Assembly (NCBI RefSeq): GCF_036417845.1
Contig: NC_090011.1
Coordinates: forward strand, 1,488,001 to 1,552,000
Direction of reading: 5' to 3'
Length of the DNA stretch: 64,000 nucleotides
Source: Apteryx mantelli
Lineage: Eukaryota > Chordata > Aves > Apterygiformes > Apterygidae
Shown here: positions 28,350 to 64,000 of the stretch, one piece after another
Layout of the letters: each line of letters starts with the position of its first letter
Numbering within the stretch: position 1 is the first letter of the stretch
Position numbers and translations under genes: made by a program
Notes under the pieces: generated by a model
Told to the model about the DNA's origin: nothing
What the model saw: the letters and a program-made list of their open reading frames with translations, nothing else
Databases searched by the model: none

Positions 28350-30745
28350 TTAGCCTAACTAAGAGCAAAGGTGTGCAGGCGACTAAACCATAGTGAATAT
28401 ATATATACATGTATATGTATATAGTAAATTATACCGTGCATGCATAGAGAACTAATCAGCCCAGAACCAGGAGCATAATGCATTTTCCCCATAGTCCGAA
28501 ATTCAACAGCCATGATGACAGTCACTGCCAGGGTTTGTCCCACACGGATTCTTTGGACTTTACATCGTGCAGTACTGGAAATAGGCTCTTTATCTTGTGG
28601 GTGTTGGGTTTGATGTGCTCACCACAGTTCCGTTGGTGTCCCAATTGCCATCAGTGCACAGGGTTAGGATGGAGGGCAGCAATGTCATGGCTCCACTCAA
28701 CAGATTCATCAGGTCACAGTTCTCTGGGCAACAGTTTCCTAGAGGGGCCATAGACTGGGACACTTTCCCCTTTGATTAGTGCCAGGTGGGTGTCTCCTGG
28801 CCCATCAGCAATGATTTCCCCTTCTGAGTGCTCAAGTTTAGCCAGTCACGCACCCACACAGCACACCCTGTAGACCCAAAACCTCCTGGGTGCTGGGTGG
28901 GTCGCAAGGAATCTGTTTCCTGGATAGTGGGGACACTTATCCACTCACATATCGGTTGGGCTATTTGATCTCTCAGAGCACATTGCAGGGGTTGGGATCT
29001 GGTGTAATGGATCGCAACTTCTGCCCCCTCAAGGTAGTTCGAGTCAATGACTCCTGCTTTGATGTCCACCCCCCTGGAGAGCTAGGCTATTACAGGGCAC
29101 CACGCGACCATAATACCCTTGAGGTGTGGTGATGGCCAACCACATACTCACAAGATGCTGGCTCTCTGGTTCAAGGGTTTTTTCTTTGTGCGGCAGTCAC
29201 AGATCCAAGCCTGCACTCCCGAGCATGGCTTGCCTAGGGAGGCAGTCTTGGAGGTGCAGCCGTTGCACTCTAAGCCCATGTGGCTGCTTGATGGATTCCC
29301 CTTTGAAACGAGCATACGGGGTAGAGCCACGCAGTGGGCGGTCACTGAGGCAGGCAGTTGCCTGAGAAATCCTTTTGCTCCAACCCATGAGGATACCAGG
29401 AGGGGACAATTTGCACAGCTGCTCTAGAGCAGTCCGTTCATTCGCTCTATCAATCCTGCCCTTCGCGGATGGTAGGGTATGTGATATGCCCAGGCGATTC
29501 CTTGCTCTCCGGCCCAATTTGGAATGTCATTCCCTCCAAAATGGGTACCCTGATCACTTTGGACTTCCACCAGGGAACCATATAACCCACTCAAGTTTTC
29601 TAATGCATAATGGTGTGAGCCTGGGGAGCTGCGGCACAGGAGTGGGTGTACAATAGACCGGAGCAGGCATCTACAGTGGTCAGGACATATCTGTGCTGCT
29701 GCCTCTCCCGTAAGGGTCCAATATCATCAGTTTGCCACATCTCCCCAGGCTTTTGCCCTCTGCGGATATAAGGCTTTTTGGTCCGCAACCGCTGCGCAGC
29801 TAAGCAAGTACAGAAGGGACAACACTGTCTGGCCTCTCTTTGTGCTGCTGGCAGCTCCCGCTCTGTGCACGCTGCCAGCGGGGCAGCAGGTGCTGCACGT
29901 CCCCCCCCTCCACCTTCCAGGCTGCTTGCTGCGCTTCCCCTCCCCCAGGGGCTGTGTGCGCTGCTCTGGCTGCAGCTGCAGACACTGCTCAAGCAGCTCT
30001 GCACTGGGTTTGCCATCCAAAAGTCCCCATGGCACACCGACTCGCAGCTGGTCTCAGAACATAGTGCCACGACTCACTCTTCTTTTTCTTTTTCTCATTT
30101 ACCCACCTGTTTCCTCAGTTCCTGTCTCCGCTAACAGAGGACGCCTCTGCTAACTGAGATAGCAGCACTGTGGCTTCCCCCACTGTACCAGTCCCACCCT
30201 CAATCATAGGTAGCAGCATCACTTTAAGATGGGGGGGCGGGGGGAAGGCAGTTCACAGCATCTTAGTCTGGATGGTTTTGCTCATGGGGATCTGATCTGG
30301 TCCGGTAAAGTCGGGGGAGTAAATTCCGGACAACATCCCTAGTTGCTACAGCTGGTTTATCCCTTGCTGCAATAGTAGCCTGCTCAGTGAGCCTATCATT
30401 GATGTCCACCCGAGTTGGCCTGAGCACACTAATATGCCTTAATGGCCCTGACCAACCTTGTTTCGGAGCCCCACATGCACCTGCTGCCCAGGGGCTCCAT
30501 TTGAAGCTTGGGCAGGTCCCTGCCCTGACAGCTCTTTTACCACACTTGGCTCCCGGCTCCCCATCCCGTTGGGAACAGCCTAACTGGCCTCCGGGCCTCC
30601 CCAGGGCCAACTGGGACCCTTCCCCTCCAGCCTGTCGAGCTTCCAGGACCCCTCATAAACAGTCTGAACACTTCCACCCTGGTCCAAGATCTCCAATGCC
30701 AAGTGCCTTTCCCAGTTCCCTGGCCCTACCCTGTTCCTGTGTCTT
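28350..30745 (-). mobile_element. Fossil ERV fragment, pol integrase region (copy A)
   Basis: Minus-strand retroviral pol. The zinc-binding and core regions of integrase are visible around 29850-29400 (VLTTVDACSGLLYTHS), followed by the distal part with RPLRGSTPYARF and a C-terminal stretch near 29069-28776. Further upstream at 30260-30400 is an earlier pol or linker stretch (DVVRNLLPRLYRTRSD). The integrase resembles that of the larger ERV at 37.9-44.5 kb. It is a fragment without gag or LTRs and is broken in several places. It predates the duplication that made copy B. Confidence 0.75.
30420..30617. repeat. Dispersed ~200-bp repeat, copy 1
   Basis: The block beginning 'tgagcacactaatatgcctt' and ending near 'caactgggaccc' recurs at 50129-50335 and 54508-54706, with a more diverged partial relative at about 54955-55060. 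Two copies are part of the duplicated unit; the one at 50.1 kb is separate. The family is unknown. Confidence 0.75.
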
Positions 30746-30747
30746 TC

Positions 30748-30872
30748 TTCATGCAGCAAGAACAGGGGATGAAGGAAGGCTGGAAGATCAAGCTCAGGAA
30801 AAATATAATTACTGCTGGAAACCAAATATAGGACACAATGTAACAAAGCTTTAATCCTGCCCGCTGAGGACA
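30748..30872 (-). pseudogene. CALHM-like exon 1 fragment (third paralogue)
   Basis: The minus strand encodes CPQRAGLKLCYIVSY, PAVIIFFLSLIFQPSFIPC and CMKKD, the middle of the same first exon found at 32220-31786 and 56595-56161. Its 'CYIVSY' and 'CMKK' are closer to the copy-B gene than to the intact copy-A gene 1.3 kb away. It is cut at the left exactly where the ERV pol block begins, and has no start codon context, TM3 or second exon. It is therefore the stump of a third CALHM-like gene removed by rearrangement. Confidence 0.7.
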
Positions 30873-31227
30873 TTGAAAGAACAGAGCAAAAGACCCCAAA
30901 TTCCTGGTATGCACTGAAGGGAGCTGAGATCCGCTTGGCTTGAAAAGCACAATAAAATGGGGCAGCAGGTTCAAATCCCTCTTAGTTTGTGATCTCCCTT
31001 TAATGGGGATGTAGATGCTGATGCTTGTGAAGCTCAGAAAGTTATGTTGCCGTAAGATGCTTAATAATTTGGACTTCCTTGCAAATGCAGACAATGTGGA
31101 TCTGCACCATTTTCAGGATTTCTCCTCCTCTTTGAGACCTGAAGATATTTCTTCCTCATTCTGTGCTTCAGGCAAAGGCAAAGCCTGAGAGGTTGAGATC
31201 CCCTAGGTGCTGCTTCATAGCTGTGAG

Positions 31228-32220
31228 TTAATGGATGCAGCTGCTGCTCTCAGAGGACAGGACAGTTTTGCTGTGGTGCACATCAGTGCTGGATGGTGGC
31301 ACCACATTTGAGGCTGGAGAATGGAGAACAGCCAACTCTTGCCCTTCATCGTTCCACAACTTTTTAGTAATACACTTCACAGTCTTCCCTGCATTTTCCA
31401 ACAGTTTTTTAAAATCTGTTTTTTTAAAAACTTCTGTAAGGAGAGGCTTGATTGTAGGCTCCAGGTGCTGCTTAATTATCTGCTGTGCAGTGTCTGTCGT
31501 GCTTTCTGTAATATATTCCTGTGTTCTTTCCTCTAATAGGAGCTCCAGCTCGTTTCTCCTATGTCCTTCTTCATCATTACAGCAGAACCAAAATGGGTAT
31601 ACAGTGTACAGGCCATAACCAACAACAAGAATAGTAAGAACAAACAGCCCCCAAACCTGAAAAAATAACAGATAAACAGAGAACAGATAAAATGGTTCCC
31701 ATAGTGACAGATCCCAGAGTCTTCACACAGAGAGAAAAAGGTGAAAAGTAAAGCACCTAAAATCCTAGATTCCTAGGGCTCATACCTGGGAGAGTATGTA
31801 CGTATCAGTCGGTGATTCTGTTGTTGTGTTCTGTCTTGTCTTTTGAGTGCTGTTTCCTTCATTTACTGGAATCACACAGTCAATGTATCTTCCATCCAAC
31901 AGCAGGATCACACACCAAAGTACAGCAGGTAAAAGTGCTCTGAAAATTAGATCAATTACCTGCGAAACTGAGTATTTCTTCGTGCAGCGAGCACAAGGGA
32001 TGAAGGAAGGCTGGAAGATCAAGCTCAGGAAAAATATAATTACAGCTGGAAGCACAAAATAGGACGCAACATAGTAAAGCTTTAATCCTGCCCGCTGAGG
32101 ACATTTAAACTCAGTCTCCATTATTTCTTCTACCACAATCATTATTATGGTATAGAATGGTACAGACAAAATATTATAATGCTTTTTCCAAGCACTGAAG
32201 AATTGCTTTCTGTCTGGCAT
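31228..32220 (-). CDS. CALHM-like four-pass membrane channel protein (intact)
   Basis: Two exons on the minus strand, 32220-31786 (145 codons) and 31656-31228 (142 codons plus stop), joined in phase 0 across a 129-bp intron with GT (CAG|GTATGA) and AG (TTTTCAG|) ends. The 287-aa product has four hydrophobic segments: VPFYTIIMIVV (about 20-30), SYFVLPAVIIFFLSLIF (about 52-68), LIFRALLPAVLWCVILLLDG (about 88-107), and VWGLFVLTILVVGYGLY at the start of exon 2. EFKCP after TM1, LLDGRYIDC after TM3 and the splice point just after an 'SQ' match the CALHM (FAM26) pattern, for example FKCPC, LLNGTFYEC and QSQ|ILGW in CALHM5 (recalled, not searched). CALHMs form large-pore channels for ions and ATP. 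The usual CPC is CPQ here, and the C-terminal tail is a long charged helix-like stretch. ATG at 32220 was chosen because copy B starts at the same codon. Confidence 0.75.
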
Positions 32221-32787
32221 ATTCTTCAGTGGTCGATACTCCACTAACTCAGAGGACGAGAGAATTCTTCCACGGCTTTATCTCGTCTTATTATACAATT
32301 CCTGTTGCCGTGACTGCAAATGATTAAACAGCAGACGAGAAACAAAAGTGAAAACACATCTGGTAATTAAACCTGGATATGCCTACCATCTTTTGTGTAG
32401 ATTAGAATTATATATTTGTAGCTTACGCTCATCTAATAAAGAAATTGCTGGTGAAATGACATACAGGGAGGAAACTTAATATGCATATGTTATTGAAAAC
32501 TGTGATAACTTTGAAACTAGATTATTTCACACAGTTGCACATTGGAAAACATTTTGGCAGTCAGGGCAGAAATCCAAAACAAGTTCTTGCAACGAATCCA
32601 GAGGTCAATCTTTTCATGACTGTCACTAACCAGTGCTATTGTAACACCAGGACAGGGCTATTACAGAGTGTTAGAAATATCTTTCTTCATTACTTTCTCT
32701 ACAACTCTAAGACACAAAGACAATTTTGGGGCTTGACGTTCTTGCTATAATTTTCTAATCCTATGGCCTCTTCTCACAGGTGTACTG

Positions 32788-33007: not shown

Positions 33008-34606
33008 CCCTGGAGACCAGGGACAAAGTCCGAAGAAAGGAAGAACTTTGCTTGGTGGAGGAGGATTGGGTTAGGGATCACTTTAACATCCTGGACGTAA
33101 ACACATCCATGGGCTTTAACGGGATGCACCCACGAGTGCTGAGGGAGCTGGCGGATGTCATTGCTAGGCCACTCTCAATCACCTTTGAGAGGTCATGGTG
33201 ATCGGGAGAGGTGCCTGAGGACTGGAAGAAAGCAACTGTCACCCTGATCTTCAAAAAGGGCAGGAAGGAGGAGCCAGGGAAATACCGGCCGGTCAGCCTC
33301 ACCTCGACCCCTGGGAAGGTGATGGAGCAGCTCATCCTGGACACCATTTGCAGGCACATGGAGGACAAGAAACGTGATCAGGAGCACTCAGCATGAATTC
33401 ACAAAGCAGGAAGCATGCTTAACCAGACTGATAGCCTTCTGCCTGGCTGGGCAGATGAGGGGAGAGCAGTGGATGTTGTGTCCCTTGTCTTCAGCAAGGC
33501 TTTTGACACTGTCTCCCATAACATCCTCATAGGCAAGCTGAGGAACTACAGGCTGGATGAGTGAGGTGGACTGAAGACTGGTTCAACAGCCAAGTTCAGA
33601 GGGCTGTGATCAGTGGCAAGAAGTCTAGTTGGAGGCCTGTAGCTAGTGGTGTCCGCCAGGGGTCGCTACTGGGTCCAAGGCTGTTCAACTTCTCCATCAG
33701 GGCCAGGATGAAGGCACAGAGCGCACCCTCAGCAAGTTTGCTGCTGAGACAAAACCGGGAGGAGTGGCTGATACATCAGACAGCTGTGCTGCCGTTCCAA
33801 AGGCCATCAACAGGCTGGAGAAGTGGGCAGAGAGGAACCTCAAGAAGTTCAATAAAGGGAGGTGCAGAGTCCTGCACCTAGGGAGGAATAACCGCTTGCA
33901 GCAGTGCAGGCTGGGGGCCGACCTGCTGGAAAGCAGCTCTGCAGAGAAAGACCTGGGGGTCCTGGTGGACAACAAGTTGGCCATGAGCCAGCAATGTGCG
34001 CTTGTGGCAAAGAAGGCCAATGGTATCCTGGGCTGCACTGGGAAGAGCGTTGCCAGCAGATGGAGAGAGGTGATCCTTCCCCTCTGCTAAAAACCAGTGA
34101 GGCCACACCTGGAGTGCTGTGTCCACTTCTGGGCTCCCCAGTACATGAGAGAGATGGAGACACTGGAGCAAGTCCAGCAAAGGGCTACTACAATGATTAA
34201 GGGACTGGAGCATGTGTCACATGAGGAAAGGCTGAGAGAGCTGGGACTGTCCAGCCTGGAGAAGAGAAGGCTCCGGGGGGATCTCCTCGATGTGTGTAAA
34301 TATGTGCAGGGAGGATGTAAAGCAGACAGAGCCAGGCTCTTCCCAGTGGTGCCCACAGGGCAAGAGACAATGCGCACAAACTGAAACACAGCAAGTTGCA
34401 TCTGAACCTAAGGAAAAGCTTTGTTACCGGGAGGGGGACTGAGCATTGGAACAGGTTGCCATGAGAGGCTGAGGAGTCTGCATCTTTGGAGATATTGACA
34501 AGCCGTCTGGACAGGGTCCTGGGCACCCTGCTTGAGGTGACCCTGCTTGAGCAGGGGGTCGGACTAGATGCTCTTTAAAGGTCCCTTCCAACCTCAATCA
34601 TTCTGT
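33008..34606 (+). mobile_element. CR1 LINE with reverse-transcriptase region (copy A)
   Basis: 5'-truncated CR1. The RT region shows VPEDWKKATVTLIFKKG, GKYRPVSLTSTPGKVMEQLI, VVSLVFSKAFDTVSHNILIG and AINRLEKWAERNLKKFNKG, all classic CR1 blocks, followed by the 3' UTR (ggtcggactagatgctcttt) and terminal 'cattctgtgacc'. The reading frame is interrupted by stops and frameshifts, so inactive. The part from about 33550 on is shared with copy B (57330-58393). Confidence 0.9.
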
Positions 34607-34660
34607 GACCTCCAGAGGTCTTTTGCAACCCAAAGTATTCTGCACTTCTGTGATTTTTTT
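34607..34660 (+). mobile_element. Older CR1 3' tail
   Basis: A second, separate CR1 end (ccagaggtcttttgcaaccc, ttctgcacttctgtgat) directly follows the previous CR1, ending in a T run. The younger CR1 seems to have inserted into or beside the older one. Repeated in copy B at 58394-58450. Confidence 0.65.
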
Positions 34661-36258
34661 TTTTTTTTTTGCTTGCTGCTACAGGGTAAAGGGGAAAATG
34701 TAAGCAAGGGTGAGAACCATTGTAACACAAAGAGATAAGCAATGTGGTGCCATAAAGTTTGCCAAGATTAGGAGAGAGCTGCAAGCAAGTTTGAGCTGCA
34801 CTTCTACAGGCTAAGAACTGAAAATGCAGAGGTGGGAATTTCAAGAAATTAGGAAGAGTGCAGCTATAACTCAAATTTGAGAATTAAATCCCTTAGGCTA
34901 GAGGAAAAGGGGCAGTGTTCAGAGCTGCAGTGCATCTGTCTAGCAACAAGTCTAGCCAGCATATAGTAATCCCCAGCAGAAATTACTCTGAAGAAACTGG
35001 GCAGGAGAGGAATCGTGTTGGAACTCAGCTTTTTCCTGCCACTTGAACTTTTAAATGATGTCAGAATCGTGAGGATGGAAATGCACTGGGAAAACTGGTC
35101 CCCTGCCTCCTGCCTTTGTGAAATGACATCTGTGCCTCAGCTAGTCATCACATAACTCCTTAATATTTCATAGGGAGATGCAGACACTTTGGGGCAAACA
35201 CACTTCCCTAAACACAGGTGTTGCAGAGACCCAAGGGCTTCCCCCATGTTGTCACAAGGACTGCCAATGCTCGAGAAGAGCCCAGGTCTCACACAGGACT
35301 TATGGCACACCTGCCAGCCGAGTGAGGAGGTCTCAAGTCCTCTCAGAAAGCTCAAGGGTTGCTGAACAACAGCGTCAGAGGAAATGAATAAAAATCCAAC
35401 TGCAGGATGGGAATCCTATGTGGGAGATTTCAGTGATTAACACAGGATGGAGAGTGGGATTCACTCTCTAACTTGAGATGTCTCTAATTCAGATAGATAA
35501 AGAGTGAGCTAGGAAAGTCTGCCTCAATTTCTCTTTATTTGACAAATGTCACAGTAACAATTCCTAACCATGAATTTTGCCAGACTCTGAATTCAGGCTA
35601 ACAGGCAGTGGTTTATTTTGCCTTGAGAAAAAGGACATGCAATATAGCAACACATGAGAAGAAAAAGCGCTCGCAATCCTCCATGGAAGATTAGGTATCA
35701 GATAGGAGTTCTCTGCCCTAGCTGAAGCTATAAGAAGTCAAGGCCATTTCTGATGAAAGCTCACGCAATTGCTTTCAGTTTTTCTTTCTCGTCATTTTGA
35801 GCACAGGCTGCTTACTATCTGTTTTAAACTGGTGCCTTAGTTCTCTGTTCATCCATGCTGCCTAGTCTTGGCTTGCAATTAGGCTCAGAACTGTGCCCAT
35901 TTCTTGCCCAGAAGATGGACACCGACTGCCCCACATGTGGCTCTGTTTTTCCAGTGCAATCTCCACAGGGTACCCCAGCAGACCTGCGCTCTCTCAGCCC
36001 ATCCTTAATGCACATATGCATCATCTGCTGCTCCAGGTTGTGCACAGTCTGCTGCAAAGTGGCACCTTCATTCACATGCACAAAATCACTCAGCAGAGAC
36101 ACACGAGAAAGCACCCTTTCCTTCTCAACAGCCAAACTCCTTTGTTACTTCTGGAAGCCCACGCAGGCAGCTGGGGGATGCAGAGGAGAGTAATGCTGCC
36201 CATGAAAAAAGCCAAGATGGCTATGTCTGGCTGTGACGATGTGCTCTTTTCCCCACCC
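34661..36258. other. Unassigned part of the duplicated unit
   Basis: No recognised gene. On the minus strand near 36240-36090 a signal-peptide-like frame (IAILAFFMGSITLLCIPQLP) and, near 36135-36020, a heptad-like stretch (ATLQQTVHNLEQQMMHMC) stand out, and both are preserved in copy B (about 60117-59650). I cannot assign them to a family. Confidence 0.3.
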
Positions 36259-37058
36259 TGATGTGCTCTCTCCCTCTCAACCCGACCTCCCTGTAAACAG
36301 CCACGTAGACAGGGGCTAATAGAGCATGCACCAACGTCTAGCATGCAAATATGACTATGAGTCAATCATTCCCCCCCCATAAATAGGGGGCAGCCCAGAG
36401 CCCATTGAGCTCTCCTGCATGGCAGCGGGCTGCACTGCGGAACCTCCTCTTGAGCAGGGACGCCTCTCAAGGTTACTCTTCAAGGCTGAGAGATTCTGTA
36501 CCCACCACAGATCCTCTGTCACTGAAGGTAAGTGATCAATAGCATGCTGAACTTTTGCGAACTTCACAAAACTTTGCTGAGTTATGTCTTTGATTAATTG
36601 TGCACATAATCCCTTAGACATAAACCGTTGACCAAGTCTGAGACTAGGATCAGATCCAGCCGCACCCAGGCCCCTCTGAGGAGGAGTTTGGAAAGCAAGG
36701 GGGTCTAGTCCGAACCTCGTGACTCAACGGGAGGGTCCCCTTCACACATACTCCTTTAGACATGAACCGTTGACCAAGTCTGGGACTAAGATTGGATCCA
36801 GCCGCACCCAGGCTCCTCTCCAAAGGAGTTTGGAAAGCAAGGGGGTCCTTTCTGAACCTCGTGACTCAACGGGAGGGTCTCCATTGCACGTGCATCTGAC
36901 CCTGTCCTTCATGCAGTAAATAACTGAGTGAACCTTGCCAATCGAACCTCGTTAAATCATTCTTATTTACGATTGAACTTTGTTAGGTCACTGTCTTACT
37001 GCAGTAAACATAGTGCTGCTTCCCTCTTACGAGTGAAGTGCATCGCTCCTCCGTGACA
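36259..37058 (+). mobile_element. LTR-like block in plus orientation (copy A)
   Basis: A probable ERV LTR reading on the plus strand: U3-like start TGATGTG, TATA box 'ataaata' at 36379-36385, a start-site-like region about 25 bp on, a splice-donor-like AAG|GTAAGT near 36527, then a tandemly repeated block and a 'gtaaataac' polyadenylation-like word, ending near 'ccgtgaca'. Its direction is opposite to the neighbouring ERV, so it does not look like that element's own end. Limits are approximate. Confidence 0.45.
36612..36881 (+). repeat. Tandem duplication of about 130 bp, two copies
   Basis: Two successive copies (36612-36740 and 36752-36881), each running from 'ttagaca' and 'accgttgaccaagtct' to 'cgtgactcaacgggagggtc'. 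Also present in copy B at 60382-60650. Confidence 0.85.
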
Positions 37059-37916
37059 CTGGCCAAACACCTCTCATTGAGGAACTGGCAACTGGCTCTG
37101 TCTAGGGGAGAGAAGCACAAGGGCAGACCTCTTCCATATATGCAAAGAGTTGGTAGCAGTTTCAGCCCTCCAACCCTCTGCACTTACCTTTTTTAGCCAC
37201 AGGCCTCTCTATTCCTAGCTGCTGCTTTCAAATTCTCTTTCAAGCCCAGCTCAAACTGAGCAGAGCATCGTGAGGAAATGCGTCTTTTTTGAAGGAGCCG
37301 TATGGCTGATGTCGGGAAAAGCATCTCATTGCCAACTATAAGAGCCATTGCTGTAAACACATCGAGATGACCTGTGCAAACTCCAAGAGCAGAGAAAGGA
37401 GGACTTCAAACAGAGCTGTGTGCCAAAAATAGCACAGGCTATTTCTGAGCATGCAGAGTGAGCAGGAGGCAAACAGCTCGCTGCTGAGAGTTGTCAGAGA
37501 GCAGATGTGAGAAAGGGAGGGCATTTTCAGAGCAAGGTTGCTCTCGGGTCAGCAGCTGCGGTGCAAAGCAGTGGCTGGCCTGGGTTGCCAAGGTGCTGAA
37601 GTGCCGCTGCACCCTTCCTCCAAGGTGCGATCCACTGCCCTCTGATGGGAAGAGATGAGAGAGACCTGGCTCCTGGAGGCCCCTTTGAAAAGCCCTTCCC
37701 TGTAATGGCCCTCTGCACTCACATTTGTGCCTGTCACTTCCTTCCTGACCTCCTTCAGTTTGCAACCCCCTTCTCCACCCATGTTCTTCTAGGCAGACAC
37801 AAGTAGCCATGTGCAACGCACAAATAAGAGTCTGCTATATCACGAGCACACTGTAGGTGTATGTATTGCCTCTACACCTCCAGTGTTGCTGCTGCTAGGA
37901 TATGCCGCAAGGTCCT
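37059..37916. other. Unassigned sequence between LTR-like block and ERV env region
   Basis: No gene recognised. It could hold the far end of the minus-strand ERV (env end and U3), but I see no clear LTR landmark. The copy in unit B is nearly identical. Confidence 0.3.
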
Positions 37917-38550
37917 TCACTGCTCCGTCATAAAGGGAAGGATGCTTAAAGTAACATGACCTACAGTGCATGGGCCACCTGTGGCGTTGGCCAGCACATA
38001 GGTATACGCTGTAGTGCCACACAGAAGGAACCACCCGAATGGTAGTATAAGGTGAGCAGGCGCATAGGTAATATTCACAGTGTCATTACAAATTAACTGT
38101 GTATTGGTTACATTCCGCAGAACAGAGGAAGCATTTACAAAGCAAAAGCCAATATATGCTTTAGATATGTTAGCTATACGAAAAGAGTAAGGCCAAGGTG
38201 TTGTCTTTTGGGAAACAATGCCCAAATCGTATAAATTCATGAGAGTAACAGAAATATCAACTTTTTTTTTTTTTAATATAACTCTGCAATACCACGAGTG
38301 GAGCTGGTACACCTATGTAACACGTAGCTAAGACACCATTCACTGATCGCCCTCCTGCAATACAGGAAGCAGAGAGATTAGCTGATCTTTGTGTGAGCCA
38401 AATCCATGTATTCACATGGGAAGCTGGATGGTCTTGTAGATTAACGGCATCTGTTGTGGTCAGCAAGAGGCAACATCCCAACGGCAACTTACAGATGCCG
38501 GCATGATAACCTGTTGATGGGTAGATAGAAAGGCATGGTATCACCATCAG
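37917..38550 (-). pseudogene. ERV env-like surface region
   Basis: Downstream of integrase, a stretch with FGWFLLCGTTAYTYVLANAT and GGPCTVGHV resembles the 'W-LLCG-AY-LP-NW-G-C' block of gammaretrovirus-like Env surface subunits, with N-glycosylation motifs nearby (NASS, NVTN). Part of a broken element; no fusion-peptide or immunosuppressive-domain block was recognised. Confidence 0.5.
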
Positions 38551-38701
38551 GAAGAACTAGAGCAGTGACTCCTGGACCATCTGCTAAAACAGTGCCAGGC
38601 CGTTTTTCCTTTTGAGGAGTTAGCATGCACACACTGGCTAAAGAGTGTGTTGAGGGTGTTTGCTGAGCATGAGGCACTCCAGCACTGTGGATCAGAATTC
38701 C

Positions 38702-40180: not shown

Positions 40181-40190
40181 AAACGTACTT

Positions 40191-41366: not shown

Positions 41367-41369
41367 CTG

Positions 41370-42786: not shown

Positions 42787-42899
42787 AGCAATTTCTCCTC
42801 CAGAGTGCCAGCGAATTCACAGGGGTACATAAGGGCGTGGGTCCCCCCGCCCAATGATAAGCTTCAACGGACGCTCCTATTGCAGGGGACCCTCCTTCC

Positions 42900-44510: not shown

Positions 44511-44515
44511 CGGTT

Positions 44516-51929: not shown

Positions 51930-52443
51930 GGTGAGGCCCCATCTGGAGTACTGCGTCCAGTTCTGGGCTTCCCAGTACAAGAGGGATGTGGCACTACTGG
52001 AGCAAGTGCAGCGAAGGGCCACAAAGATGATGAGGGGACTGGAGCATCTCTCTTATGAGGAAAGACTGAGGGAGCTGGGCCTGTTTAGCCTAGAGAAGAG
52101 AAGGCTGAGAGGAGATCTTATCAACGTGTGCAAGTATCTGAAGGGAGGGTGTCAAGAGGATGGGACCAGACTCTTTTCAGTGGTGCCGAGCGACAGGACG
52201 CGAGGCAACGGGCACAAACTGAAACACAGACACTTCCATCTGAACACGAGGAAAAACTTTTTCACTGTGAGGGTGACAGAGCACTGGAACAGGTTGCCCC
52301 GAGAGGTGGTGGAGTCTCCTTCTCTGGAGATATTCAAAACCCGCCTGGATGCAATCCTGTGCAATGTGCTCTAGGTGACTCTGCTTGAGCAGGGGGGTTG
52401 GACTAGATGATCTCCAGAGGTCCCTTCCAACCTCAGTGATTCT
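51669..52443. repeat. Inverted repeat, ~260-bp arms, ~254-bp spacer
   Basis: Arms 51669-51928 and 52183-52443 are near-perfect reverse complements. They could fold into a long hairpin in DNA or RNA. Formed by two opposed CR1 3' ends. Confidence 0.85.
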
Positions 52444-52447
52444 GTGA
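51930..52447 (+). mobile_element. CR1 3' end, plus orientation (right arm of inverted pair)
   Basis: A longer CR1 3' part. It encodes the end of the RT ORF ([62 protein letters not shown]), then the 3' UTR and terminal 'gtgattctgtgatt'. The last 260 bp are the inverse of the neighbouring CR1. Immediately after it, the duplicated unit (copy B) begins. Confidence 0.9.
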
Positions 52448-54830
52448 TTAGCCTAACTAAGAGCAAAGGTGTGCAGGCAACTAAACCATAGTGAATATAT
52501 ATATATACACGTATATGTATATAGTAAATTATACCATGCATGCATAGAGAACTAATCAGCCCAGAACCAGGAGCATAATGCATTTTCCCCATAGTCCGAA
52601 ATTCAACAGCCATGATGACAGTCACTGCCAGGGGTGGTCCCACACGGATTCTTTGGACTTTACATCGTGCAGTACTGGAAATAGGCTCTTTATCTTGTGG
52701 CTGTTGGGTTCGATGCGCTCACCGCAGTTCCGTCAGTGTCCCAATTGCCATCAGTGCACAGGGTTAGGATGGAGGGCAGCAATGTCACGGCTCCGCTCAA
52801 CAGATACACGGTTCTCTGGGCAACATTTTCCTAGAGGGGCCGTAGACTGGGACACTTTCCCCTTTGATTAGTGCCAGGTGGGTGTCTCCTGGCCCATCAG
52901 CAATGATTTCCCCTTCCGAGTGCTCCGGTTTAGCCAGTCACGCACCTACACAGAACACCCTGTAGACCCCAAACCTCCTGGGTGCTGGGTGGGTCGCAAG
53001 GAATCTATTTCCTGGATAGTGGGGACACTTATCCACTCACATATCGGTTGGGCTATTTGATCTCTCAGAGCACATTGCAGGGGTTGGGATCTGGTGTAAG
53101 GGATCGCAACTTCTGCCCCCTCAAGGTAGTTCGAGTCAATGACTCCTGCTTTGATGTCCACCCCACTGGAGAGCTAGGCTATTACAGGGCACCACGCAAC
53201 CATAATACCCTTGAGTGATGGCCAACCACATACTCACAAGATGCTGGCTCTCTGGTTCAAGGGTTTTTTCTTTGTGTGGCAGTCACAGATCCAAGCCTGC
53301 ACTCCCGGGCATGGCTTGCCTAGGGAGGCAGTCTTGGAGGTGCAGCCGTTGCACTCTAAGCACATGCGGCTGCTTGATGGATTCCCCTTTGAAACGAGCA
53401 TACGGGGTAGAGCCACGCAGTGGGCGGTCACTGAGGCAGGCAGTTGCCTGACAAATGTTTTTGCTCCAACCCATGAGGGTACCAGGAGGGGACAATTTGC
53501 ACAGCTGCTCTTTGAGCAGTCCGTTCATTCGCTCTATCAATCCTGCCCTTCGCGGATGGTAGGGTACGTGATATGCCAGGCGATTCCTTGCTCTCCGGCC
53601 CAATTTGGAATGTCATTCCCTCCAAAATGGGTACCCTGATCACTTTGGACTTCCACCAGGGAACCATATAACCCACTCAAGTTTTCTAATGCCTTAATGG
53701 TGTGAGCCTGGGGAGCTGCAGCACAGGAGTGGGTGTACAATAGACCGGAGCAGGCATCTACAGTGGTCAGGACATATCTGTGCTGCTGCCTCTCCCGTAA
53801 GGGTCCAATATCATCAGTTTGCCACATCTCCCCAGGCTTTTGCCCTCTGCAGGTATAACGCTTTTTGCTCCACAAACACTGTACAGCTAAGCAAGTACAG
53901 CAGGGGCAATGCTGCCTGGTCTCTCTTTGTGCTGCTGGCAGCTCCCGCTCTGTGCACGCTGCCAGCGGGGCAGCAGGTGCTGCACGTCCCACCCCCTCCA
54001 CTTTCCAGGCTGCTTGCTGCGCTTCCCCTCCCCCAGGGGCTGTGTGCGCTGCTCCGGCTGCAGCTGCAGACACCGCTCGAGCAGCTCTGCACTGGGTTTG
54101 CCATCCAAAAGTCCCCATGGCACACCGACTCGCAGCTGGTCTCAGAACATAGTGCCACGACTCACTCTTCTTTTTCTTTTTCTCATTTACCCACCTGTTT
54201 CCTCATTTCCTGTCTCCGCTAACAGAGGACGCCTCTGCTAACCAAGATAGCAGCACTGTGGCTTCCCCCACTGTACCAGTCCCACCCTCAATCATAGGTA
54301 GCAGCATCACTTTAAGATGGGGGGGCGGGGGGAAGGCAGTTCACAGCATCTTAGTCTGGATGGTTTTGCTCATGGGGATCTGATCTGGTCCGGTAAAGTC
54401 GGGGGAGTAAATTCCGGACAACATCCCTAGTTGCCACAGCTGGTTTATCCCCTGCTGCAATAGCAGCCTGCTCAGTGAGCCTATCATTGATGTCCACCCG
54501 AGTTGGCCTGAGCACACTAATATGCCTTAATGGCCCTGACCAACCTTGTTTCGGAGCCCCACATGCACCTGCTGCCCAGGGGCTCCATTTGAAGCTTGGG
54601 CAGGTCCCTGCCCTGACAGCTCTTTTACCACACTCAGCTCCCAGCTCCCCATCCTGTTGGGAACAGCCTGACCAGCCTCTGGGCCTCCCCAGGGCCAACT
54701 GGGACCCTTCCCCTCCAGCCTGTCGAGCTTCCAGGACCCCTCATAAACAGACTGAACACCTCCACCCTCATCCAAGATCCCCCTGCCAAGTGCCTTTCCC
54801 AGTTCCCTGGCCCTACCCTGCTCCTGTGTC
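52448..54830 (-). mobile_element. Fossil ERV fragment, pol integrase region (copy B)
   Basis: Duplicate of 28350-30745 with small differences. The integrase region shows SLVEVQSDQGTHFGGN and RAGLIERMNGLLKEQ. Broken in several places. It contains the second copy of the dispersed 200-bp repeat (54508-54706). Confidence 0.75.
54508..54706. repeat. Dispersed ~200-bp repeat, copy B
   Basis: Counterpart of 30420-30617. A diverged relative ('catagaccttaatggcccgg') follows at about 54955-55060. Confidence 0.7.
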
Positions 54831-55866
54831 CCCTGAAACAGCCCACTGACACCTCACAGCAGTTAAATCACTCTGCAGAAAGTCTCTTCTGCACCCAGAT
54901 CTCCATAAGGTGTGAGGACCCACCTTGCTGGGAGGGGAGGCTGCACCCAGGGCCCTGGGGGCACTCATAGACCTTAATGGCCCGGAGCAGCCTTACCTGG
55001 GGCCTCCACCCACGCACCCAGCAGCTCCGTGTAAGGCCCAGCAGCACCGTTTAAGCTCAGCCTGTGCCTTCCGGCCCTGTCTGAGCTATGCTGTAGCAGG
55101 AAGTCCTTCAAAACGCAGCAGCTTGTTCAGTTGGTAATTGTAGGCCCAGGGGGTGCCACAAAGAGGAGCCTCGCTCCCAGGTTGCCCTACACCTGCTGCC
55201 AAAAGCAGAATCTTCTTATTGCATTTCCTTGAAGGTGGCTGCACGAGTGACAGAGCGGCAACATTAGGTCTCGCAACACAGCGTGAGCAGGAGAAGGAGA
55301 AGGGATGGGCATCAGGGAAATCCTCCTGCAACCTCAGGCTCCTCTCTAGCAGCTGTTGTGTGCCGTTGCCAGTACGTGATGGAGGGAAAGGGAGGGAGGG
55401 GATACTGCCACCCAGCAGGCAGCCCCTGAAAGTCTCCTCCTTTCTCTCCTTCAGGCAGTGCTGCGTGATGGGTACTTCTGCTCTGGAGAAGTCGGGAGAC
55501 CTCCCAGCTTGCCTCAACCAAGCCTAAATAACCAGTGCCACCAGCATCATTGTTTGTTCTCCGTACCAGTTTGTAGCTGAGCAATGCAAGTTTCAGAAAT
55601 AGCATCAGGAAAACACACTCCACTCTGAAAACTGACCGTTGTGTGTCCCTCCCCCACCCCATCTTTTCTCACCAGCTTTGATGCAAAGGTGTTTGCAAGA
55701 TGCAAAGGCCAGTTTGGCTTTATACACTGTGTTAGAAAGAGTTTCGGTTCAGGAGACAATTTATGAACTAGAGCCATGCTACGGAAAGAACAGTGAGAGC
55801 AGGGTATTTTTCCAGCCCAGCTTCAATGTCCCACCCAAACATGTGTCACCATCCTCTCACACAAGG
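54831..55866. other. Sequence present only in copy B
   Basis: This stretch replaces the CALHM-like stump and spacer of copy A (30748-31500). No gene recognised; the minus-strand open frame 55517-55086 has no domain signature. It joins the CALHM-like exon 2 at about 55890. Confidence 0.4.
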
Positions 55867-56595
55867 TCATTCCAAGAGGTGTTCGCTGAATTCCTGTGGT
55901 CTTTCCTCTAATGGGAGCTCCAGCTCGTTTCTCCTATGTCCTTCTTCATCATTACAGCAGAACCAAAATGGGTATACAGTGTACAGGCCATAACCAACAA
56001 CAAGAATAGTAAGAACAAACATCCCCCAAACCTGAAAAAATAACAGATAAACAGAGAACAGATAAAATGGTTCCCATAGTGATAGATCCCAGAGTCTTCA
56101 CACAGAGAGAAAAAGGTGAAAAGTAAAGCACCTAAAATCCCAGATTCCTAGGGCTCATACCTGGGAGAGTATGTACGCATCAGTCGGTGATCCTGTTGCT
56201 GTGTTCTGTCTTGTCTTGTGAGTGTTGTTTCCTTCATTTACTGGAATCACACAGTCAATGTATCTTCCATCCAACAGCAGGATCACGCACCAAAGTAGAG
56301 CAGGTAAAAGTGCTCTGACAATTAAATCAATTACCTCCAAAACTGAGTTTTTCTTCATGCAGCGAGCCCAGGGAATGAAGGAAGGCTGGATGATCAAGCT
56401 CAGGAAAAATAAAATTACAGCTGGAAGCACAAAATAGGACACAATGTAGCAACGCTTTAATCCTGCCCGCTGAGGACATTTAAATTCAATCTCCATTATT
56501 TCTTCTACCCCAATCAAAATTATGGCATAGAATGGTACAAACAAAATATTATAATGCTTTTTCCAAGCTCTGAAGAACTGCATTCTGTCTGGCAT
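55867..56595 (-). CDS. CALHM-like protein, second copy with shortened C-terminus
   Basis: Exon 1 is 56595-56161 (145 codons, intact, same length and splice phase as copy A). Exon 2 is 56031-55867. It begins VWGMFVLTILVVGYGLY like copy A, but leaves the shared sequence after ELELPLEERPQEF, within the cytoplasmic tail, and stops 6 codons later (SEHLLE). The product would be 199 aa with all four membrane segments but without most of the tail, which in CALHMs helps channel assembly. There are several amino-acid differences from copy A (IIQPSFIPWARCMKKN against IFQPSFIPCARCTKKY). It could be a truncated active paralogue or a pseudogene in an early stage. Naming as for copy A. Confidence 0.65.
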
Positions 56596-56841
56596 TTTGT
56601 TCAGTGGTCAATACTCCACTAACTCAGAGGATGGGAGAATTCTTCCACGGCTTTCTCTGGTCTTATTATACACTTCCTGTTGCTGTGACTGCAGATGCCT
56701 AAACAGCAGAGAGGAAATGAAAGTGAAAACACATCAGGTAATTAAACCTGGATACACCTACAATCTTATTTGTAGATTAGGATAACATATTTGTAGCTTA
56801 CGCTCATCTAATAAAGAAATTGCTGGTGAAATGACATAGAG

Positions 56842-57329
56842 GGAAGACCTTGCATGCAAAATCCTCAGACAGCCCCTGAGGTGTCCTTGGGCACCTGAGA
56901 ATTTCAACAGGGGATAAATCTATGGCAGCAGATCTGGGATTTCTGCTATAGAACCGGTTTCAGGGAAGGGATCCCACTGACTGAAATTTAGAAGGTTAAG
57001 ACTCAATTTAGTAGTCCTGTATTTAGTAGCTTTTCAAATACTCCACAGGTTCCAAGACACCCAGTTAAGCCTTCCAAATGCTTCATGGGACCTGTGAGAG
57101 ACTTGTGCCCTGCTGCAGAGCTGTTCGCTTGACCTATTTTAGACATCTGCCCTAGAAGCACATGCTTCTAACCAAAAAACAAATCTCAACAGCTATTTCT
57201 TTTTCAAAACAGTGTTGAACCCTCCCCAGAGTCTATTTGACCATGCAACCACTCCTTTAAGTCACGGAAAAAGACAGCTCCTCCAGGTCTGTGAGTTAGA
57301 TAACCCTCACCTCTAACTGCACAAATAAA
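56842..57329. other. Sequence present only in copy B
   Basis: Occupies the place of 32470-33550 in copy A. No gene recognised. Confidence 0.4.
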
Positions 57330-58393
57330 TGCAGGCTGGATGAGCAGACAGTGAGGTGGAGTGAAAACTGGTTGAACAGCCAAGTTCAGAGGGCTGTGAT
57401 CAGTGGCAAGAAGTCTAGTTGGAGGCCTGTAGCTAGTGGTGTCCGCCAGGGGTCGCTACTGGGTCCAAGGCTGTTCAACTTCTCCATCAGGGCCAGGATG
57501 AAGGCACAGAGCGCACCCTCAGCAAGTTTGCTGCTGAGACAAAACCGGGAGGAGTGGCTGATACATCAGACAGCTGTGCTGCCGTTCCAAGGGCCATCAA
57601 CAGGCTGGAGAAGTGGGCAGAGAGGAACCTCAAGAAGTTCAATAAAGGGAGGTGCAGAGTCCTGCACCTAGGGAGGAATAACCGCTTGCAGCAGTGCAGG
57701 CTGGGGGCCGACCTGCTGGAAACAGCTCTGCAGAGAAAGACCTGGGGGTCCTGGTGGACAACAAGTTGGCCATGAGGCAGCAATGTGCGCTTGTGGCAAA
57801 GAAGGCCAATGGTATCCTGGGCTGCACTGGGAAGAGCGTTGCCAGCAGATGGAGGGAGGTGATCCTTCCCCTCTGCTAAAAACCAGTGAGGCCACACCTG
57901 GAGTGCTGTGTCCACTTCTGGGCTCCCCAGTACATGAGAGAGATGGAGACACTGGAGCAAGTCCAGCAAAGGGCTACTATGATGATTAAGGGACTGGAGC
58001 ATGTGTCACATGAGAAAAAGCTGAGAGAGCTGGGACTGTCCAGCCTGGAGAAGAGAAGGCTCCGGGGGATCTTACTGATGTGTGCAAATATGTGCAGGGA
58101 GGATGTAAAAGAGACAGAGCCAGGCTCTTCCCAGTGGTGCCCACAGGGCAAGAGGCAATGCGCACAAACTGAAACACAGCAAGTTGCATCTGAACCTAAG
58201 GAAAAGCTTTGTTACCGGGAGGGGGACTGAGCATTGGAACAGGTTGCCATGAGAGGCTGGGGAGTCTGCATCTTTGGAGATATTCACAAGCCGTCTGGAC
58301 AGGGTCCTGGGCACCCTGCTTGAGGTGACCCTGCTTGAGCAGGGGGTCAGACTAGATGCTCTTTAAAGGTCCCTTCCAACCTCAATCATTCTG
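57330..58393 (+). mobile_element. CR1 LINE (copy B)
   Basis: Duplicate of about 33550-34606 carrying the distal RT part and 3' UTR. The proximal CR1 part found in copy A (33008-33550) is missing and replaced by unrelated sequence (56842-57330). An older CR1 tail follows at 58394-58450, as in copy A. Confidence 0.85.
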
Positions 58394-60019
58394 TGACCTC
58401 CAGAGGTCTTTTGCAACCCAAAGTATTCTGCGCTTCTGTGATTTTTTTTTGCTTGCTGCTACAGGGTAAAGGGGAAAATGTAAACAAGGGTGAGAACCAT
58501 TGTAACACAAAGAGATAAGCAATGTGGTGCCATAAAGTTTGCCAAGATTAGGAGAGAGCTGCAAGCAAGTTTGAGCTGCACTTCTACAGGCTAAGAACTG
58601 AAAATGCAGAGGTGAGAATTTCAAGAAATTAGGAAGAGTGAAGCTATAACTCAAATTTGAGAATTAAATCCCTTAGGCTAGAGGAAAAGGGGCAGTGTTC
58701 AGAGCTGCAGTGCATCTGTCTAGCAACAAGTCTAGCCAGCATATAGTAATCCCCAGCTCTGAAGAAATGGGTAGGAGAGGAATCGTGTTGGAACTCAGCT
58801 TTTTCCTGCCACTTAAACTTTTAAATGATGTCAGAATCGTGAGGATGGAAATGCACTGGGAAAACTGGTCCCCTGCCTCCTGCCTTTGTGAAATGACATC
58901 TGTGCCTCAGCCACATAACTCCTTAATATTTCATAGGGAGATGCAGACACTTTGGGTCAAACACACTTCCCTAAACACAGGTGTTGCAGAGACCCAAGGG
59001 CTTCCCACGTGTCGTCACAAGGACTGCCAATGCTCGAGAAGAGCCCAGGTCTCACAAAGGACTTATGGCACACCTGACAGCCGAGTGAGGAGGTCTCAAG
59101 TCCTCTCAGAAAGCTCAAGGGTTGCTGAACAACAGCGTCAGAGGAAATGAATAAAAATCCAACTGCAGGATGGGAATCCTATGTGGGAGATTTCAGTGAT
59201 TAACACAGGATGGAGAGTGGGATTCACTCTCTAACTTGAGATGTCTCTAATTCAGATAGATAAAGAGTGAGCTAGGGAAGTCTGCCTCAATTTCTCTTTA
59301 TCTGACAAATGTCACAGTAACAATTCCTAACCATGAATTTTGCCAGACTCTGAATTCAGGCTAACAGGCAGTGGTTTATTTTGCCTTGAGAAAAAGGACA
59401 TGCAATATAGCAACACATGAGAAGAAAAAGCGCTCGCAATCCTCCATGGAAGATTAGGTATCAGATAGGAGTTCTCTGCACTAGCTGAAGCTATAAGAAG
59501 TCAAGGCCATTTCTGATGAAAGCTCCTGCAATTGCTTTCAGTTTTTCTTTCTCGTCATTTTGAGCACAGGCTGCTTACTATCTGTTTTACACTGGTGCCT
59601 TAGTTCTCTGTTCATCCATGCTGCCTAGTCTTGGCTTGCAGTTAGGCTCAGAACTGTGCCCATTTCTTGCCCAGAAGATGGACTCCAACTGCCCCACATG
59701 TGGCTCTGTTTTTCCAGTGCAATCTCCACGGGGTACCCCAGCAGACCTGTGCTCTCATCCCATCCTTAATGCACATATGCATCATCTGCTGCTCCAGGTT
59801 GTGCACAGTCTGCTGCAAAGTGGCACCTTCATTCACATGCACAAAATCACTCAGCAGAGACACACGAGAAAGCATCCTTTCCTTCTCAACAGCCAAACTC
59901 CTTTGTTACTTCTGGAAGCCCACGCAGGCAGCTGGGGGAGGCAGGGGAGAGTAATGCTGCCCGTGAAAAAAGCCAAGATGGCTATGTCTGGCTGTGACGG
60001 TGTGCTCTTTTCCCCGCCC

Positions 60020-60828
60020 TGATGTGCTCTCTCCCTCTCAACCCGACCTCCCTGTAAACAGCCACGTAGACAGGGGCTAATAGAGCATGCACCAACTAAG
60101 ATCCGTCTAGCATGCAAATATGACTATGAGTCAATCATCTCGCCCCCGATAAATAGGGGGCAGCCCAGAGCCCATTGAGCTCTCCTGCATGGCAGCGGGC
60201 TGCACTGCAGAACCTCCTCTTGAGCAGGGACGCCTCTCAAGGTTACTCTTCAAGGTTGAGAGATTCTGTACCCACCACAGATCCTCTGTCACTGAAGGTA
60301 AGTGATCAATAGCATGCTGAATTTTTGCGAACTTCACAAAACTTTGCTGAGTTATGTCTTTGATTAATTGTGCACATAATCCCTTAGACATAAACCGTTG
60401 ACCAAGTCTGAGACTAGGATCAGATCCAGCCGCACCCAGGCCCCTCTGAGGAGGAGTTTGGAAAGCAAGGGGGTCTAGTCCGAACCTCGTGACTCAACGG
60501 GAGGGTCCCCTTCTCACATACTCCTTTAGACATGAACCGTTGACCAAGTCTGGGACTAAGATTGGATCCAGCCGCACTCAGGCTCCTCTCAGAAGGAGTT
60601 TGGAAAGCAAGGGGGTCCTTTCTGAACCTCGTGACTCAACGGGAGGGTCTCCGTTGCACGTGCATCTGACCCTGTCCTTCATGCAGTAAATAACTGAGTG
60701 AACCTTGCCAATCGAACCTCGTTAAATCATTCTTATTTACGATTGAACTTTGTTAGGTCACTGTCTTACTGCAGTAAACATAGTGCTGCTTCCCTCTTAC
60801 GAGTGAAGTGCATCGCTCCTCCGTGACA
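60020..60828 (+). mobile_element. LTR-like block in plus orientation (copy B)
   Basis: Duplicate of 36259-37058, including the TATA-like box near 60149, the donor-like AAG|GTAAGT and the tandem 130-bp repeat (60382-60650). Same uncertainty about its limits. Confidence 0.45.
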
Positions 60829-61686
60829 CTGGCCAAACACCTCTCATTGAGGAACTGGCAACTGGCTCTGTCTAGGGGAGAGAAGCACAAGGGCAGACCT
60901 CTTCCATATATGCAAAGAGTTGGTAGCAGTTCCAGCCCTCCAACCCTCTGCACTCACCTTTTTTAGCCACAGGCCTCTCTATTCCTAGCTGCTGCTTTCA
61001 AATTCTCTTTCAAGCCCAGCTCAAACTGAGCAGAGCATCGTGAGGAAATGCGTCTTTTTTGAAGGAGCCGTATGGCTGATGTCGGGAAAAGCATCTCATT
61101 GCCAACTATAAGAGCCATTGCTGTAAACACATCGAGATGACCTGTGCAAACTCCAAGAGCAGAGAAAGGAGGACTTCAAACAGAGCTGTGTGCCAAAAAT
61201 AGCACAGGCTATTTCTGAGCATGCAGAGTGAGCAGGAGGCAAACAGCTCGCTGCTGAGAGTTGTCAGAGAGCAGATGTGAGAAAGGGAGGGCATTTTCAG
61301 AGCAAGGTTGCTCTCGGGTCAGCAGCTGCGGTGCAAAGCAGTGGCTGGCCTGGGTTGCCAAGGTGCTGAAGTGCCGCTGCACCCTTCCTCCAAGGTGCGA
61401 TCCACTGCCCTCTGATGGGAAGAGATGAGAGAGACCTGGCTCCTGGAGGCCCCTTTGAAAAGCCCTTCCCTGTAATGGCCCTCTGCACTCACATTTGTGC
61501 CTGTCACTTCCTTCCTGACCTCCTTCAGTTTGCAACCCCCTTCTCCACCCATGTTCTTCTAGGCAGACACAAGTAGCCATGTGCAACGCACAAATAAGAG
61601 TCTGCTATATCACGAGCACACTGTAGGTGTATGTATTGCCTCTACACCTCCAGTGTTGCTGCTGCTAGGATATGCCGCAAGGTCCT

Positions 61687-63960
61687 TCACTGCTCCGTCA
61701 TAAAGGGAAGGATGCTTAAAGTAACATGACCTACAGTGCATGGGCCACCTGTGGCGTTGGCCAGCACATAGGTATACGCTGTAGTGCCACACAGAAGGAA
61801 CCACCCGAATGGTAGTATAAGGTGAGCAGGCGCATAGGTAATATTCACAGTGTCATTACAAATTAACTGTGTATTGGTTACATTCCGCAGAACAGAGGAA
61901 GCATTTACAAAGCAAAAGCCAATATATGCTTTAGATATGTTAGCTATACGAAAAGAGTAAGGCCAAGGTGTTGTCTTTTGGGAAACAATGCCCAAATCGT
62001 ATAAATTCATGAGAGTAACAGAAATATCAACTTTTTTTTTTTTTAATATAACTCTGCAATACCACGAGTGGAGCTGGTACACCTATGTAACACGTAGCTA
62101 AGACACCATTCACTGATCGCCCTCCTGCAATACAGGAAGCAGAGAGATTAGCTGATCTTTGTGTGAGCCAAATCCATGTATTCACATGGGAAGCTGGATG
62201 GTCTTGTAGATTAACGGCATCTGTTGTGGTCAGCAAGAGGCAACATCCCAACGGCAACTTACAGATGCCGGCATGATAACCTGTTGATGGGTAGATAGAA
62301 AGGCATGGTATCACCATCAGGAAGAACTAGAGCAGTGACTCCTGGACCATCTGCTAAAACAGTGCCAGGCCGTTTTTCCTTTTGAGGAGTTAGCATGCAC
62401 ACACTGGCTAAAGAGTGTGTTGAGGGTGTTTGCTGAGCATGAGGCACTCCAGCACTGTGGATCAGAATTCCTCACAGTATCAGTGCTCCCTGTGAGACAT
62501 TCACTGGTGTGGATACGGAAACCTGGAAAGATAAATCTTGAGAAGAAGTCAATAAGAGTGGGGCTATTTGAACAGGTATCAAAGGTGTAAACAGCCATAC
62601 ACACTGTGAAGGGCAGTCGAGGCTTAAATGTAAGCTTATAACTCTTTGTTCAGTAATCGTGAGCTGCTCCGGTGTACAGAATTCTACCTCCCCGGAGGCG
62701 AATATGCAAGGGGCAATCCCCCTTTCCATTACAGATATCCGAGCAGGGATTGCTAGCGTCAGTTTGGCTTGTACTCGCTCATAGGGAGTAAGCATTCCAA
62801 CACACCTATTGTTAAGCATAAACAGCGCTTGTGAGAGCATGCTCACCCACCCCCTTGACGTTTGCGTGGTGGTAAGTGTTTGGATTTGTTCTTTTAGCAG
62901 GCCATTCATTCTCTCTATTAATCCACTAGCTGGAGGGTGGTACGGTATATGCAAGACCCAGGCGATCCCCAAGTCCTTTGCCCATTCTTGTACTACATGG
63001 CCTGCAAAGTGGGTACCTTGGTCACTCCGTATTTCTTTTGGTATACCGTAAGTATACATGAGTTGCTCTAAGCCCTGTACAGTAGAGGATTGATTCGCCT
63101 AGGAGGTAGGATATGCGTACATAAGGCCTGGGTAAATGTCTGCAGCAGTTAATATATGCTTTTGTCCCTGTGAGGGGGGCAATGGGCCTACATAATCTAC
63201 TTGCCAGCTTGCAAACGGTTGTTCGCCTCACTTCATGTGACCACAGATACTGGTGAAAGGCACTTTTGTTATCTTCATACGAACGGGACAGTTAGCACGG
63301 GCTGTCTTATACCAATGTAGCACTAACATGGGATGGCCTGGTGATAGATCCCAAGCCTGCACTTTGATGGGGCCACGATGTCCTGATCGTTCATGCTCTT
63401 GCCAAGCTTGCTTTAACTCTGAGGCAGTTGCCATCTGATCAACTGCTGTATTATGCCGCGTTTCGAAGGTCTCCTGCTTCTGATGGGCGTCAACATGTCG
63501 CACAGACACAGCTTTAGCTTGCACAATGTCCCAAATCCTTTCCCACAAGGGGCTCCCCCAGAGTTCCTTGTCATGTATCTTCCACTGTGCGGTGGCCCAT
63601 GCTGGTAACCAGGTTCGCAGACCCTTGTATAGTACCCAGCTATCCATATAGAGGTAGCGTGCATCTCCCTCATCGAGAGCTATAGCTGCAGCCTTTCATT
63701 CGGCCCACTGACTTGAGTATCCCATTCCTGAGGCAAAACAGATAGTATCCGTGGCAGGATTATGCACTACAGAGCGCCACACTCGCTCTCCTGCCCAGGA
63801 ATACACTGCACTGCCATCAGAAAACGAGGCCCACTCTCATTGCTCAGGAGACAACCTCTCAAAAGGAGGGGCCTCTTGGACAGGCAACAGCTCTGTTGGG
63901 GGAACAAGGGGGGCAGCCCCTCCAGCTCAGACAGTAGAGGCATGGGCTCAAAACGTACTT
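61687..63960 (-). mobile_element. Fossil ERV, class III-like, env to RNase H part (copy B, runs off the window)
   Basis: Nearly identical duplicate of 37917-40190: env-like region (62320-61687), integrase (63059-62700) and RNase H (63647-63228 and beyond). Broken like its twin. The remainder lies outside the window. Confidence 0.8.
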
Positions 63961-64000
63961 TGTCGGAGTGGGGGGAACGGGCCCGGAGTAACGACGGAGT
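63961..64000 (-). mobile_element. Edge of nested alpharetrovirus-like LTR (copy B)
   Basis: The last 40 bases match the start of the LTR at 40191 (tgtcggagtggggggaac) at the same insertion point. The nested LTR was therefore already present before the duplication. Confidence 0.75.

Follow-up and report, generated by a model that had tools for sequence, protein, structure and literature searches.

A tandem segmental duplication of three units with a recombinant middle unit in the kiwi Apteryx mantelli

Introduction

Tandem segmental duplications in which unequal crossing over and interlocus gene conversion have acted consist of adjacent units on the same strand, contain hybrid units and show identity that changes stepwise along the copies. 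The same features are found in an array of units, with a period of about 24 kb, that we describe here from the kiwi Apteryx mantelli, in and just beyond a window of 64,000 bases (C34:1488001-1552000, the whole stretch of DNA analysed). The array is of an already known kind, a tandem segmental duplication with a recombinant middle unit, and it differs from tandem segmental duplications in general in that its halves are marked by two oppositely distributed retroelement insertions, which is a clearer signal than identity alone. It carries genes similar to CALHM and to natterin-3. Positions are numbered from the first base of the window; extended window coordinates run past both of its ends.

Architecture of the array

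A first-pass annotation of the window, made from its letters alone, had proposed three colinear same-strand block pairs within a recent tandem duplication of two copies. Self-BLAST reproduced all three pairs: block A (28342-30743 / 52440-54830, 95.8%), block B (31515-32472 / 55890-56847, 93.1%) and block C (33549-40230 / 57332-64000, 98.3%), each on the same strand and with an E-value printed as 0.0. The tandem arrangement on one strand in a retroelement-rich setting therefore stood, but the number of copies did not, as a search of flanking DNA revealed a third unit just beyond the window; nor were the spacers between the blocks homologous. Position 64000 is merely the end of the window and not a block edge, because homology between units 1 and 2 continues to 51649 / 74528. 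The units are as follows:

27966-51649, plus strand: unit 1 (P); left edge given by a flank (27966-28351) that recurs at 74720-75105
~51650-74719, plus strand, in the window to 64000: unit 2 (hybrid, Q-like on the left and P-like on the right)
74720-87400, extended window coordinates, outside the window: unit 3 (Q)

The right edge of unit 1 is the final base ahead of an inverted piece of CR1. The copies are long, adjacent and in the same orientation, and they hold more than one transposable element, as expected of a tandem segmental duplication. When the CALHM-like protein was searched against the assembly (1.504 Gb in 408 contigs, as in all genome-wide searches here), all seven matches fell on C34 within the array, where they correspond to three genes of two exons and one fragment.

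Units 1 and 2 were then compared block by block. The parts of the blocks used below are:

28351-30743, plus strand: block A of unit 1, from self-BLAST and alignment
52449-54830, plus strand: block A of unit 2, from self-BLAST and alignment
33549-36883, plus strand: left part of block C in unit 1, beginning inside a CR1

Substitutions were found at 79 of 2377 aligned sites in block A, 66 of 958 in block B and 71 of 6653 in block C. Block B contained no gaps beside its 66 substitutions, against 18 gaps beside 150 substitutions in blocks A and C together. Divergence is far from even within the blocks. In block C it falls at a best change point of 36884, with a likelihood gain reached by none of 500 permutations, from 59/3270 differing sites on the left (33585-36883) to 9/3347 on the right (36884-40230), which confirms the drop noted in the first-pass annotation. 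In block B only 5 of 286 sites differ at 31515-31800, compared with 59 of 611 (9.7%) at 31801-32411, a segment that comprises exon 1 of the CALHM-like gene and its 5′ flank. The description of the duplication as recent consequently fits some tracts, which differ by 0.2-0.3%, and fails for the left parts, which are about 3.3-9.7% diverged. Alignment of the A/B and B/C spacers showed no homology between the unit 1 and unit 2 copies. A 142-bp tandem pair at 36603-37060 adjoins the change point, and 36900-37060 is part of a many-copy repeat (93-96% among the matches scored).

The first 2.06 kb of block A are dispersed retroviral repeat sequence, for which scoring of 40 of 265 candidates gave at least 36 matches elsewhere (81-86%); an integrase domain match lies in block A of unit 2. 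We considered whether the blocks might be independent insertions of repeats and rejected this, as their order is kept and the array copies of block A are 96% alike, whereas the listed 36 matches elsewhere reach 81-86%.

Left and right halves group differently

The left halves group unit 2 with unit 3. Both have the CR1-bearing insertion (as a remnant in unit 2), the two spacers and a CALHM-like gene in shortened form, none of which is present in unit 1. The markers other than the gene are:

28351-28352, no strand: empty site of the CR1-bearing insertion in unit 1, where the flank directly abuts block A
51931-52449, plus strand: CR1 3′ remnant before block A of unit 2
54831-55889, plus strand: A/B spacer of unit 2, present in unit 3 (11/1049 sites differ) and not found in unit 1
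56848-57331, plus strand: B/C spacer of unit 2, present in unit 3 (3/483 sites differ) and not found in unit 1

At the corresponding place in unit 3 the flank (74720-75105, 94.3%) is followed by about 3.2 kb (75106-78350), the right part of which is CR1 by similarity, and then by block A from 78351. Unit-specific substitutions for units 1, 2 and 3 numbered 65, 14 and 19 in block A, 47, 12 and 7 in block B and 36, 10 and 23 in the left part of block C; these counts, from a three-way comparison without an outgroup, are branch lengths only, and under a clock they would pair unit 2 most closely with unit 3. Gaps at which units 2 and 3 agree against unit 1 were seen up to position 35989.

The right halves group units 1 and 2 instead, by the following markers:

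37897-44391, minus strand: truncated retroviral fragment of about 6.5 kb, carried by units 1 and 2 but missing from unit 3
36114-37142, no strand: interval in which unit 2 switches affinity from unit 3 to unit 1; most of it is absent from unit 3

Frames in the retroviral fragment match integrase, RNase H and reverse transcriptase. In unit 3 its flanks (37142-37896 and 44392-44930) are separated by 380 bp only. The edges of the fragment agree with the ends of its family, because matches to other copies start and stop there: on the left, 37 of the 38 listed matches outside the array start at query position 896 (window 37895), and on the right, 26 of the 32 listed tail matches end at 44392-44395 (query 1093-1096) and the other six at 44411. 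The left flank itself was found at full length only in the three array units, among 40 matches scored of 1257 candidates, and its unit-specific counts for units 1, 2 and 3 are 2, 0 and 8. A solo long terminal repeat (LTR) in unit 3 was considered in explanation of its missing fragment and rejected, since the 380 bp have a single match in the assembly, namely themselves, and no direct-repeat pair fitting LTRs was found in 35.5-46.5 kb. The family of the fragment has at least dozens of further copies (87-92%), many of them at C2:167.4-169.5 Mb; a scan of viral contigs with the integrase frame gave four pattern matches and no relative. Also in the right half, a segment of 908 bp (45787-46694) is present in unit 1 and not in unit 2.

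Origin of the middle unit

As the left halves group units 2 and 3 and the right halves group units 1 and 2, unit 2 reads as a recombinant. The first-pass annotation had offered partial gene conversion or a stepwise origin for the uneven divergence, a suggestion that is borne out here and can be sharpened to a recombinant middle unit. We favour, as the probable history, a tandem duplication into P and Q followed by unequal crossing over, which would yield P, a unit with a Q left and a P right, and Q, and then by patchy gene conversion. Unequal crossing over is preferred because the observed order is its expected product, with the hybrid unit flanked by both parental types in the right order. 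We infer crossing over rather than conversion, as well as the ancestral state of each insertion, the order of events and the dates, along the following lines. An ancestral block of about 24 kb would have been duplicated in tandem to give P and Q, which correspond today to units 1 and 3. During divergence Q would have acquired the CR1-bearing insertion and a shortened CALHM-like gene, with P carrying the 6.5-kb retroviral fragment. Q on one chromatid would then have paired with P on another, and a crossover at about 36.1-37.1 kb of the unit would have produced the hybrid between P and Q. Later gene conversion would have homogenised patches of units 1 and 2, the junction of units 1 and 2 would have lost about 3.3 kb and gained the inverted CR1 piece, and unit 3 would have lost its right end.

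Distances that would postdate the crossover are of one order of magnitude, at 117/13851 (0.84%) between units 1 and 2 on the right and 113/7863 (1.44%) between units 2 and 3 on the left. At a kiwi substitution rate of 8.0e-10 per site per year, which is called only an estimate by its authors (PMC9550048), simple arithmetic would give ages of about 21-23 million years for block A, 5-9 million years for the hybrid and about 1.7 million years for the youngest tract.

Several observations weigh against this history. The two distances are unequal, though a single event predicts equal age. Units 1 and 3 differ by 3.7% in block A, 6.4% in block B and 2.4% in the left part of block C but by only 1.3% in each of the two stretches on the right, and such uneven divergence between P and Q goes beyond one duplication and one crossover; that continued conversion lies behind it is an assumption. 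In the right flank of the retroviral fragment (44392-44930) the unit-specific counts of 1, 7 and 6 do not join unit 1 with unit 2. Finally, the fragment could have been lost from unit 3 instead.

A rival history has two successive tandem duplications, with units 2 and 3 the younger pair, after which conversion from unit 1 wrote over unit 2's right half and brought in the retroviral fragment. That some conversion occurred is indicated by the right-hand comparison of units 1 and 2, in which patches at 0.2-0.3% lie beside patches at 0.8-1.7%, a mixture that points to later conversion. A single conversion would nevertheless have to span about 14 kb, compared with the 50 to several hundred bp given for most tract estimates in a review of experimental data (PMC3924818); many separate conversions would otherwise be required, and the order of P, hybrid and Q would then be a coincidence. 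We regard this course of events as possible but doubtful. Replication-based template switching is a good deal less plausible, although it would account for apparent scars in the array: the non-homologous spacers between like blocks, the 7-base overlap of a CALHM-like exon fragment with block A and, at the junction of units 1 and 2, the inverted CR1 piece. Both spacers are common to units 2 and 3 and so require a single origin, and divergence varies among the parts of the array, which argues that it was not formed at once.

The array might also be an artefact in which two haplotypes were laid end to end. False duplications are described as common in older assemblies and as marked by gaps, half depth and discordant linked reads (PMC9516828), the 0.27% difference at 36884-40230 is of a size possible between alleles, and 200 N are present at 104-114 kb (extended window coordinates). 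There are no N in the window, in the 20 kb to its left or in the 40 kb to its right, so that no gap separates the copies anywhere from -20 kb to 104 kb. The presence of three units with unlike junctions, divergence of up to 9.7%, which is not at allele level throughout, and a kiwi heterozygosity described as relatively low (PMC9550048) also speak against it, and from the assembled sequence we judge a two-haplotype artefact to be very unlikely.

Junctions between units

The junction of units 2 and 3 is the fuller of the two, as about 3.3 kb of it are missing from the junction of units 1 and 2, which contains instead:

51650-51928, minus strand: inverted CR1 end at the junction of units 1 and 2 (7 mismatches in 267)

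At 51648-52449 two CR1 ends stand head to head exactly at this junction, and the left arm repeats the right in inverted orientation (97.4%). An expansion of CR1-Y elements in kiwi has been reported (PMC8665684); the copies in the array are identified here at the level of CR1.

The CALHM-like gene

The exons of the CALHM-like gene that lie in the window are:

31786-32220, minus strand: exon 1, unit 1 (145 codons)
31228-31656, minus strand: exon 2 to the stop, unit 1 (142 codons)
56161-56595, minus strand: exon 1, unit 2
55867-56031, minus strand: shortened exon 2, unit 2 (54 codons and a stop; the same in unit 3)
30737-30878, minus strand: exon 1 fragment of 142 bp, unit 1 only, with 17 mismatches to exon 1 of unit 1 and 16 to that of unit 2, and overlapping block A at its left end

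As in the CALHM family, exon 1 matches PF14798 (47 and 46 bits in units 1 and 2, cut-off 25) and the gene consists of two exons with a GT-AG intron; in a domain scan no family was matched by the frame of exon 2 on its own. Eight relatives were found, all unnamed proteins, from crane, egret, curlew (two), penguin and sea turtles, the closest of which are 38-53% identical. In place of the motif CPC of CALHM4, CPQ or CPR is found in six relatives (P0001-P0006) and in both kiwi forms. These proteins, from kiwi, other birds and turtles, also have no cysteine in the loop ahead of exon 2; cysteines at these places form a second disulphide in known CALHMs. The structure model of the crane relative was too weak for use (mean predicted local distance difference test score, pLDDT, 45).

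The gene is open over 287 codons in unit 1. In units 2 and 3 it has 199 open codons and, in contrast to CALHM proteins, is without the C-terminal part, exon 2 being cut at one identical place and followed by an identical short tail, with the splice motifs of the intron retained in all three units. Over the 192 shared codons the proportions of synonymous and nonsynonymous differences (pS/pN) were 0.06/0.06 between units 1 and 2, 0.07/0.05 between units 1 and 3 and 0.02/0.02 between units 2 and 3. Units 1 and 2 differ at 29 residues, of which 14 match a relative in unit 1 alone, 3 in unit 2 alone, 5 in both and 7 in neither (sign test, p = 0.013); this count used six of the eight relatives, P0007 and P0008 being left out on account of their unalignable N-terminal parts. 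On these patterns unit 1 looks like the conserved gene and the copies in units 2 and 3 look relaxed. We also considered positive selection on the diverged exon 1 and rejected it, as the 5′ flank is equally diverged (28/252 compared with 33/434) and the ratio of nonsynonymous to synonymous rates (dN/dS) is 0.87, the rates not differing significantly (p = 0.67).

The first-pass annotation had seen gene birth in the duplication. For the CALHM-like copies the case is weak, given the loss of the C-terminal part and a pN close to pS, and they look more like decay than birth; the natterin-3-like gene described below, by contrast, was duplicated with both exons. The shortened form might conceivably function as a new protein, for instance by joining or blocking full-length channels, and the array might be a copy-number-variable kiwi immune locus. 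The gapless block B and the splice motifs retained in three units hint at a working protein, and the near equality of pN and pS argues against one; we consider the proposal unlikely. Mouse CALHM6 is reported to act in macrophages (PMC10068325). A literature search gave no paper that combines CALHM6, birds and duplication, and among the papers listed none was, judged from its title and the opening of its abstract, concerned with the kiwi locus, which does not prove that the locus is unpublished.

The natterin-3-like gene and neighbouring regions

Units 1 and 2 contain a natterin-3-like gene with both exons, the second copy lying outside the window (L009:6279-8532):

47399-47521, plus strand: exon 1, unit 1
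49086-49655, plus strand: exon 2, unit 1 (0/570 differences to the unit 2 copy)

Like natterin-3-like proteins, it encodes a DM9 domain (PF11901), the sole domain reported for these frames in a general domain scan, and the 174 residues searched are 100% identical to an annotated Apteryx mantelli protein. The kiwi array is distinguished by its two copies; a more distant relative (59%) lies at C34:1768072-1768524.

To the left of the array, frames at 13390-21263 match V-set, butyrophilin-type C2-set and PRY/SPRY domains, which suggests a butyrophilin-like gene. A scan against Rfam at gathering scores gave no matches. Further left, at about -20 to -11 kb (extended window coordinates), is a tandem array of near-identical copies with 88-99% identity and spacings of, for example, 1339 and 2504 bases. 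To the right, at about 88-141 kb, long repeats, both direct and inverted, form a cluster in which several are 99.5-100% identical, including 97983-104000 against 112524-106507 (inverted, 6018 bases, 100%) and 94001-102009 against 132011-124001 (99.5%). This cluster may reflect palindromic amplification or an assembly problem.

Significance

The array illustrates a known process well, and it is old in part. It also shows how a comparison of only two units misleads on both age and copy number. The locus brings together natterin-like, CALHM-like and butyrophilin-like genes in kiwi, and we would guess that its copy number may vary among these endangered birds. Read as we propose, the locus would preserve in a bird the traces of a natural unequal crossing over, legible from two conflicting retroelement insertions.

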